This document shows, piece by piece, positions 24,701 through 27,700 of a stretch of 64,000 nucleotides of DNA; within the stretch, counting starts at the first letter, position 1; each line of letters starts with the position of its first letter. The stretch covers positions 2,976,001 through 3,040,000 of the forward strand of contig JAKZAN010000004.1 in the NCBI GenBank assembly GCA_023053545.1, written 5' to 3'. This DNA is from Lepidurus packardi (lineage: Eukaryota > Arthropoda > Branchiopoda > Notostraca > Triopsidae). The translations under genes and the position numbers were made by a program. The notes beneath the pieces were generated by a model that saw nothing but the letters and a program-made list of their open reading frames with translations, made no database searches and was not told where the DNA came from.

Positions 24701-27700
24701 GCCAATGCAACGCAACAAAACGACGAACGTGATTTCTACTTGGGAGTTTATGGCGGTTTGGGCATTGGACAAGGTACATGACATTTTAAACTGATTTCTC
24801 GTATTCGTATGTAGTTTGGTTTGTGGTCTTGCTTTGCATGCAAACTTTCCTCTGTCCGCTTGAACTGCTTTGCGACGGTTTGCTGAGAAAAACCGGGAAA
24901 ATGGAAAAAAAAATTTAGTCTAGAGGCGAAAAAAGGGACGTTTAGCATAATTTGCCCCACTTTGTAGCCTTGTTCGTGGCCGTAGCTACCATCGTAATGG
25001 CACTGGGATTCCTCTTGGCCTCGGCTATGTTGCACAATCAAATGCTCGCGCGTAGTCTGCGGAATCCCATGTCTTTCTTCGACACCACGCCCATTGGGCG
25101 GATCGTCAATCGATTTGCCAAGGATGTAGACACTGTGGATAACACCATCCCTTCCACTCTTCGCTCTTGGCTCAACTGCCTTTACTCGGTAGGGGGTTTC
25201 CTATTTCGTTTTACAAACAAAAAAAGCTCCTCATTTATTAAAAAAAAATTCGTCACATTTTCATTTCCCATCGAATTTAACTTGTTTGTTGAAATTTTCG
25301 TTAGGCAGTAAGTGCTGCAAGCTCTTAATCAAGCGAAACTGAGGGTGATAGTAATTCTTCAGTTATTTTGCATTGCCTTGCCACACATGACTCACTTTTC
25401 TTGCGCATAATTCAAGATTTGTGTTTTCGCATGGGAATTTTGGGTTGCAATATTTTGTTTAGTCATGTGTCTGTGATTTTACTGGTTTTCTGTTCATGTG
25501 TAGCGTCCTGCGTCATGGTGGGCACTGTGCTCATGTCATTGGCCACGTTGAAAGCCGGATTTGTGTTGCATTCCCGAATGTTTGGCCATATTATGCGCAA
25601 TCCGACTACTTTTTTTGACACTACGCCTGCCGGTCGGATCTTAAACCGAGTTAGCAAAGATGTGGACACGCTAGATAATACCCTCAATTTCGTTCTCCGC
25701 GGTTGGATTACCACTTTTTATCAAGTACAGGCAATTTATTCATACTTCTCCGTATCCGAAAGAAACAGTTTTGCTGGCGTTTTTATCCCTTGCGGTCTGG
25801 TTTTCTTGTAGTTTTTAGTTGCTTCTTTTTTCCTTATTTGTGTGGCACTTTTTTTTAAAGACTAAAAGCTACCTAACACAGCTGCATTTTCGCGTTTGTG
25901 CAAGTTACGTTAACCGAGCTATGGCCGAGAAAGCTTCGCGTGACGTCATGAAATGGTTAGCAAAGGAGGTGTGCGAACTATTAAACGCCATAACTCGTAA
26001 ACGGCTTGACGCAAAAAGTGAAAAAAAACTTCTATAGTAATCTATTAGAAGAGTCAAGAAAAATGGTGGTTAGATGGCTATTGCGTTTTCTTTCTTTTTT
26101 TTTTTAAGGTTAATTGGGTTTTTGTGTGGTTGATTGTGCTAAACATCCGTTGTTTTTCAATTCGGGCGTGTTTGTTGCAGCTGTTATGGGCTACATGGAA
26201 GTAGTTCCTTATTTGGGCTGTGCTGCCGCTTCCAGATTGCTTCATCGCCAAGCTTTCGGGCATATCATGCGTTCGCCCATGTGGTTCTTTGATACGAACC
26301 CCATTGGGCGAATCCTGGGCCGCTTTTCCAAAGATTTCGAGTCCGTGGATTCCCAATTACCCATGGTTTTCATGGATTGGCTCTTTTGTTTGTATAAAGT
26401 GAGGACCGCAGGCTCAAAGAACGCTGGCAGAATTATGTTTAACTTTATAATCCTTGTTTTCTAATACTACCTTTTTTTAGACGAATTTTTTTGAAATTCA
26501 GTCTCATCACTTTCGTTTTTTAATTCGTGTTTATTTATATTAGAATATGTTATCAATAACGAGATATTTACACTAGGTGGTTGCTACAGTGCTCGTTATT
26601 AGCTATAGTACGCCCATTTTCTTGACCATTGTACTGCCCATTGGAGTAGTGTACTACTTCATGCAACATTTCTACGTCGCCACGTCTAGACAGTTGAAAC
26701 GGTTAGAATCCGTATCTAGGTCCCCTATTTATTCACATTTTGGAGAAACCATCACAGGTAATTAGCGAATTAATAGTCCCAATACAAGTAAAATTATTTA
26801 TTAATCATTTTTTTTATCTGGGTACATTAGGAGCACATGTTATTCGAGCATATGGCCAACAGCAGAGGTTTATGCAAGAATCAGAGCATCGAGTTGACGT
26901 GAATCAGATTTGCTACTACCCTAGCATTATTGCCAACAGGTTTTTTTTTGTTTCTAGTAAGTTTTAATTTTTGTAACGTTTCGTATAGATGGTTGTCCGT
27001 ACGTTTGGAAACGATGGGCAATTTTGTTGTTTTCTTTGCTGCTTTGTTCGCCGTTTTGGGCCGCGACACTTTAGATCCTGGCACTGTTGGACTCTCGATT
27101 AGCTACGCGCTCAACGCAAGTTGCTTTATGTCATAAATAAACTATTTTTTAATATAATTGTGATAGTAGTGTTAGAATGTTGTTCTAATGACTTTTGTAT
27201 AGGTTACCCAAGTTTTGAACTGGTTTATGCGCATGACTTCCGAAGTTGAGACCAATATCGTAGCTGTCGAACGTATTAAGGAATACACAGAAACGCCTCA
27301 AGTAAAAGCATTTGATTAAATTTCAGTGGTTATATATTTATATATAATTTTAAAAAAAATCCTTGAAGTTTTCTTGGAAACTTTTTGTAATCACAATTTT
27401 TGAAGCATTGTTAAAAAATTTTCGTGCTAAATTGTCATGTAAACTTGATTAGGAAGCTGACTGGGAGATTCCTGACCACAAACCGGCACCCGAATGGCCT
27501 GAAACTGGGCGTGTCGAGTTCAAGAATTATCAGCTGAGATACCGCGAAGGATTAGATTTGGTTCTAAAAGGAATTTCTTGCGAAGTCGAAGGAGGAGAAA
27601 AGGTACAGTTGAAAAATTATTAGTTTCGAAATACTTTTCCCGTAAATCTTAACTGTGGATTTGTAGATTGGAATTGTGGGACGAACTGGAGCTGGCAAGT

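Follow-up and report, generated by a model that had tools for sequence, protein, structure and literature searches.

Tandem arrays of alternative exons have already been described in MRP genes, and the gene reported here adds another case. As set out in part of PMC6071210 (citing Yue 2017), such arrays arose by multiple independent duplications across phyla, with intron structures guiding the choice of exon. The same portion of that source gives Drosophila MRP a cluster of eight alternative exons with reported competing RNA structures, and places MRP beside srp, Dscam and 14-3-3zeta under a bidirectional or competing pairing model; in srp, a pseudoknot impedes the joint formation of the pairings (PMC6071210). 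A figure legend in PMC9741552 assigns at least two events to the fly MRP gene, one of them with eight exons, and an event in mrp-1 of Caenorhabditis elegans is described in part of the same source as unrelated to the fly event.

In Daphnia pulex, Dappu-347281 is a long MRP that groups with the fly gene CG6214, according to part of Sturm 2009 (PMC2680897). The stem "splic" has 0 occurrences in the text of PMC2680897 on Daphnia ABC genes, and a limited literature search, which took in parts of PMC2680897 and PMC7318467, turned up no report of exon variants in a Daphnia MRP. For the spider mite, part of PMC3724490 counts 23 ABCC genes in the clade of CG6214 and the long MRPs.

Here we describe a long-MRP gene of the notostracan Lepidurus packardi in which two regions of the protein are each encoded by tandem homologous exons. 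Positions are counted in the window, that is, the whole stretch of 64,000 nt analysed (GenBank assembly GCA_023053545.1, contig JAKZAN010000004.1, positions 2,976,001 to 3,040,000 of the forward strand).

Results

A long-MRP gene open through six exon combinations

Exons 2-30 of the gene could be read on the forward strand (Table 1); exon 1 was not located. When the two variants of exon 12 and the three of exon 21 were joined to the remaining exons, none of the 6 resulting isoforms met a stop between exon 2 and the terminal stop codon, and their lengths were 1513 or 1514 aa. For the isoform carrying 12a and 21a, Pfam returned the domains of a long MRP: TMD0_ABC, two stretches of ABC_membrane and two of ABC_tran. 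Among PDB matches, the TMD2 part with 21a was closest to ABCC2 (2.2e-126), MRP1 (8e-125) and ABCC3 (3.7e-117), while the TMD1 part with 12b matched MRP1 (2.5e-66). Judged by these domains and matches, the gene is a long MRP of the ABCC1/2/3 type, with ABCC2 and MRP1 as its nearest solved relatives; a preliminary description of this DNA had called it ABCC1-type, and both Pfam and PDB agree. A TMD0 query against the animal's own genome gave 3/3 matches at this locus, in a search that a diverged TMD0 could escape, and more distant ABCC paralogues are present in the same genome. Reading frame and homology together identify the intron that follows exon 24 as GC-AG: it opens with GC at 27115-27116 (AAC/gcaagt).

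Table 1. Positions of the gene, its alternative and neighbouring exons, and the arms of candidate intron pairings in the window
Feature	Position	Strand	Length	Remarks
Long-MRP gene, exon 2 to stop	19597..28762	+		Layout TMD0-TMD1-NBD1-TMD2-NBD2; exon numbering matched to exon 21 of the preliminary description
Exon 12a1, first part of 12a	21937..22037	+	101 nt	TM11 region of TMD1; E 1.2e-6 (12b+13 query), E 5.5e-12 (to 12b)
Exon 12a2, second part of 12a	22104..22149	+	46 nt	101 + 46 = 147 nt
Exon 12b, single-exon alternative to 12a1+12a2	22309..22455	+	147 nt	25/49 aa identical to 12a
Exon 20, constant, 5' of cluster 21	24569..24773	+		Ends in phase 1
Candidate pairing P_c, 5' arm	24928..24960	+		Just 5' of exon 21a; bases 24935-24960 genome-unique at <=3 mismatches
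Exon 21a	24968..25188	+	221 nt	Phase 1 in, 0 out; own-genome self-match E 6.5e-44
Weak candidate pairing P_a, 5' arm	25242..25254	+		Downstream of exon 21a; 30/1000 shuffles; 8/100 by energy (this intron pair)
Exon 21b	25504..25724	+	221 nt	Phase 1 in, 0 out; E 3.0e-19 to 21a query
Candidate pairing P_b, 5' arm	25767..25796	+		Downstream of 21b; bases 25773-25796 genome-unique at <=3 mismatches
Candidate pairing P_c, 3' arm	26124..26156	+		5' of exon 21c; -29.6 kcal/mol; exons a and b would be looped out
Exon 21c	26181..26398	+	218 nt	Phase 1 in, 0 out; one codon fewer; E 3.9e-16 to 21a query
Candidate pairing P_b, 3' arm	26405..26434	+		From intron nt 7 after 21c, next to the 21c donor; -34.0 kcal/mol; exon c would be looped out
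Weak candidate pairing P_a, 3' arm	26480..26492	+		3' of exon 21c; 13 pairs (10 A-T)
Exon 22, constant, 3' of cluster 21	26577..26757	+		

Cluster 21 holds three copies of one exon

Exons 21a, 21b and 21c are adjacent and homologous, of near-equal length, with the same phases and conserved splice sites, each being flanked by AG and GT. The segment they encode runs from TM13 through the first cytoplasmic loop of TMD2 into the start of TM14. Positions, lengths and phases (Table 1), as well as the shared FFDTxPxGRI core, are all as the preliminary description had given them, and its reading of the three as alternatives for one and the same segment of TMD2 is supported. Residue identity is 37/74 for a and b, 33/73 for a and c and 31/73 for b and c, and 21 of the 74 columns are invariant across all three. 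The E values of 21b and 21c in Table 1 come from searching the animal's own 108.6-Mb genome for exon a, and by that measure the likeness of the copies exceeds chance. The same codon is kept at conserved degenerate residues in only 13/34, 12/31 and 10/29 cases (the three exon-21 comparisons); synonymous codons have thus drifted while residues were kept, and the exon-21 protein therefore looks selected. A nine-sequence tree, which held no fly sequences, joined 21a, b and c (56) with weak supports overall (46 to 69), and a constrained search gave the same tree. A search with the 21a+22 protein in genome_contigs and viral_contigs confirmed no relatives outside the animal's own genome (43 and 2 pattern matches). 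From the sequence, we conclude that cluster 21 is a tandem duplication of one ancestral exon.

Could the copies instead be an assembly artefact, or fragments of neighbouring paralogous genes? Daphnia genes are often duplicated in tandem, according to part of PMC2680897. We compared each of exons 2-30 by tblastn with positions 12000-34000 of the window, dropping own-place matches and considering rows with E <0.5. This gave the known copies plus cross-matches between NBD1 and NBD2 (E 2.6e-4 to 0.001), while the rest, at E >=0.003, were taken as chance; no fourth copy of exon 21 was found in this interval. Only exons 21 and 12 are copied, then, the NBD cross-matches being expected, and with no more than half of their residues shared, the copies have diverged too far for a haplotype duplication. 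Both observations make an artefact or stray paralogue extremely improbable.

Wrong combinations of exon 21 break the reading frame

The frame stays intact only when a single exon 21 is included. Joined sequences with zero, two or three of them (5 combinations, 4324-4984 nt long) all reach an early stop. Counting from exon 2, it falls at nt 3048-3291, ahead of the last junction (nt 4212-4872). This confirms the frame logic of the preliminary description, which had held that two exons 21, or none, would shift the frame. It had also held that the lengths enforce exclusive use, and here only a part survives: the frame does break if the number of included copies is not exactly one, but the penalty is automatic, because an asymmetric exon was copied in tandem. 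The frame rule follows from exon phase and marks mistakes only; the lengths do not enforce the choice. Taken as a whole, the sequence of cluster 21 makes it very probable that splicing uses one of the three exons at a time.

A second alternative set without frame protection

The window holds an additional set of alternative exons, cluster 12 (21937-22455), absent from the preliminary description. Here a single exon (12b) stands as alternative to a unit of two (12a1 and 12a2), and the 66-nt intron between the two parts would bring in an in-frame stop if retained. Both 12a and 12b are phase 0-0 and join exon 13 in frame, and a search of the animal's own genome with 12b+13 as query recovered 12b and 12a1. 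Including both variants or neither leaves the frame intact, and lengths therefore cannot enforce exclusion at cluster 12. Identity to MRP1 is 30/49 for 12a and 27/49 for 12b: 12a is as near to MRP1 as 12b is, so neither looks like a relic. Both 12a donors are weak (ranks 3 and 2 of 25). No intron pairing stands out in this cluster (31, 109 and 204 of 300 shuffles).

Long introns and weak donors at cluster 21

Among the gene's 32 introns, the four in and around cluster 21 hold length ranks 1, 4, 5 and 6 (p = 0.002). A steric or spliceosome incompatibility might bar the joining of two variants, either because the spacing introns are very short or because U2 and U12 sites are mixed; part of PMC6071210 names both as exclusion mechanisms. 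The introns that space 21a, b and c measure 315 and 456 nt, above the gene median of 80. Moreover, the cluster-21 sites are GT-AG, and their donors are unlike what we take to be the U12 consensus. Incompatibility of either kind is thus a most improbable cause of exclusion here.

Compared with 25 constitutive donors (the GC donor of exon 24 left out), those of cluster 21 are weak (p = 0.005), while its acceptors are not significantly so (p = 0.11). Donor scores are 0.43 for 21a, 4.29 for 21b and 1.55 for 21c, the last falling below all 25 constitutive donors. It might be argued from the 21c donor that only one exon works, probably 21a, and that 21b and 21c are old duplicates seldom or never spliced in, the more so as 21a is the nearest of the three to human ABCC2 (41/74 residues identical, vs 29/74 for 21b and 27/73 for 21c). 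Yet the weakest donor of the three belongs to 21a itself, and in 21b and 21c the frame, the phases, the splice dinucleotides and the core of the coupling loop have survived a heavy drift of synonymous codons. We regard a single working exon as improbable.

Two crossing candidate pairings between cluster-21 introns

Of the 32 introns, 12 are >=100 nt long, and we scanned all 66 pairs that these 12 form for complementarity. The lowest two shuffle counts among the 66 were those of the intron pairs containing P_b (0/1000) and P_c (4/1000). For the 60 intron pairs outside cluster 21, 0/60 reached 0.01 and 4/60 reached 0.05; when cluster-21 pairs were set against the others, Fisher's test gave p = 0.007, at a cut-off set after the values were known. 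P_c, which was first noticed in a repeat list and then tested, comprises 24 Watson-Crick and 4 G-U pairs over 33 positions, and P_b comprises 20 Watson-Crick and 6 G-U pairs over 30. A windowed energy scan of the 66 pairs placed the P_b pair first (-34.8; 0/100 shuffles) and the P_c pair second (-29.4; 2/100), with an intron pair outside cluster 21 ranking third at -27.8, near P_c. As for genomic repeats, these were ruled out as the source of P_b and P_c for one searched arm each, which is unique in the genome.

Other measures were largely unfavourable. By whole-intron duplex energy, none of the six cluster-21 pairs was significant (27 to 157 of 200 shuffles reached energies just as low), and the six as a group, set against the 60 others, gave a Mann-Whitney p = 0.08, three of them lying at shuffle p 0.31 to 0.89. 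Full-length folds contained P_c; P_b was absent from them even with P_c forbidden (highest pair probability 0.001), and P_a was absent from folds with blocked arms. No pairing was found between the introns flanking 21a (178/300 shuffles), nor any able to bring 21b to exon 20. When the best pairing per intron pair was examined, no docking site common to all selectors emerged, the arms of P_a, P_b and P_c being different.

P_b and P_c cross, and therefore their joint formation needs a pseudoknot and the two should compete. As a model, the crossing pairings predict exclusive exon choice: P_c, joining the region upstream of a with that upstream of c, would favour 21c, while P_b, joining the region downstream of b with that downstream of c, would exclude 21c and favour 21b. 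The model is incomplete, because P_a is weak and no pairing was found to span 21a. We give intron pairing an even chance of being the mechanism by which exon 21 is chosen.

These data also bear on another scheme, in which splicing is unregulated and out-of-frame mRNAs are errors that decay removes. The early stops in sequences with zero, two or three exons 21, all upstream of the last junction, are as this scheme would have them. Such a frame penalty arises of itself whenever an asymmetric exon is duplicated, however; cluster 12 of the same gene is without it, and two cross-cluster pairings of unusual strength lie in the cluster-21 introns. Decay alone is therefore an unlikely explanation. In the reading that we prefer, choice would be directed by pairing, with the decay of out-of-frame mRNA as a backstop.

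Variants differ at pocket residues and keep the coupling-loop core

Loop and helix columns of exon 21 were sorted by hand with assumed helix limits; so sorted, 16/43 columns of the cytoplasmic coupling loop are invariant vs 5/31 in the TM13/TM14 helices (p = 0.04). R1079 and R1083 of ABCC2, which part of PMC10844203 places in TM14 and in R-domain contacts, align with arginines present in 21a, 21b and 21c. In Table 1 of PMC8267652, 14 residues lining the MRP1 cavity are put forward as contacts for leukotriene C4, not all of them biochemically supported. With human numbering anchored on residues named in parts of PMC7072590 and PMC7203140, 2/14 fall by alignment within alternative exons: F594 (TM11) in cluster 12, replaced by Y in 12a and retained in 12b, and M1093 (TM14) in cluster 21, which is S in 21a, G in 21b and D in 21c. 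Nearby, E1089 corresponds to S in 21a, F in 21b and M in 21c, and K1092 to R in 21a and 21b and M in 21c. An E1089Q change affects resistance and not organic-anion transport, as reported in part of PMC1488846. The preliminary description had the variants altering the substrate-facing helices. This holds in so far as M1093, of the 14 listed cavity residues, lies in exon 21, but most of the invariant columns are in the NBD-coupling loop. We infer from the aligned sequences that the variants may tune the substrate range.

Other features of the window and genome

Downstream of the MRP gene, two long intron-free open frames (29384-30547 and 33752-34786) are mutually similar by eye and seven-helix-receptor-like; Pfam found no match for either at E 0.001. 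On the reverse strand, 35654-36091 encodes the N-terminal region of a glycosyl transferase group 7 (Pfam E 9.9e-31), which we take to be beta-1,4-galactosyltransferase-like. Two peptides within 15901-16311 and 17286-17444 are alike by eye (PTVDVFLSRDLD), suggesting a tandemly duplicated gene; the first of these PTVDVFLSRDLD-type peptides (within 15901-16311) had no match in Pfam. Elsewhere in the same animal genome there is a GH7 cellobiohydrolase gene (L015-L019, contig C2, about 9754700-9756700). Its best PDB match is 4xnn, presumably a Daphnia pulex protein, with 97/130 residues identical by hand count of the alignment.

Discussion

Our overall reading is that cluster 21 is a tandem-duplicated, mutually exclusive cluster, and we hold this to be likely; choice may be directed by pairing, with decay as a backstop, and the variants may tune substrates. 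One ancestral exon of the long-MRP gene would have been duplicated in tandem to give 21a, 21b and 21c. Each mature mRNA would carry one of them, so that the pump would come in three versions that differ in TM13, the NBD-coupling loop and the beginning of TM14. Combined with the choice of 12a or 12b around TM11 of TMD1, this would allow up to six pumps from one gene.

A more specific proposal, which we put forward tentatively as a possibility with well below even chances, is that of a pump with two dials. TM11 (F594) and TM13/TM14 (E1089, K1092, M1093) would reset different walls of the pocket while the NBD-coupling loop is kept. The TMD2 dial would be set by the crossing pairings, and the TMD1 dial would swap equal-length units of one or two exons without frame protection. 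If so, a single gene, the sole one that the TMD0 query brought up, would yield six substrate ranges. The substrate range of an MRP1-type pump would then be changeable by splicing and not by gene copies, and gene-level expression data would miss the change. With one cluster frame-protected and the other not, the gene also offers an internal comparison that would tell the part played by mRNA decay apart from the part played by intron pairing. In a limited literature search, with sources seen in part, we met no precedent for the exchange of one exon for two, for the frame contrast between the clusters or for the P_b and P_c pairings.

A close parallel is MRP of Drosophila melanogaster (CG6214), which belongs to the same type of MRP as the present gene and likewise carries alternative exons in tandem. 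Compared by description, the gene reported here differs in having three variants of the TM13-loop-TM14 segment and two around TM11, one of the latter split over two exons. By description, too, mrp-1 of C. elegans resembles it, as an MRP orthologue with a tandem event of homologous exons (PMC9741552, in part). P_b and P_c resemble the bidirectional pairing of the srp type as far as that is outlined in our sources; here the prediction draws on a single genome, with energies and shuffles as the controls. By the published grouping, in the part of it that we draw on, Dappu-347281 of Daphnia pulex is the likely orthologue of this gene. The spider mite, going by the gene count cited above from part of its source, represents multiplication of genes in the same clade, to which splicing variants of the kind described here would be an alternative route.
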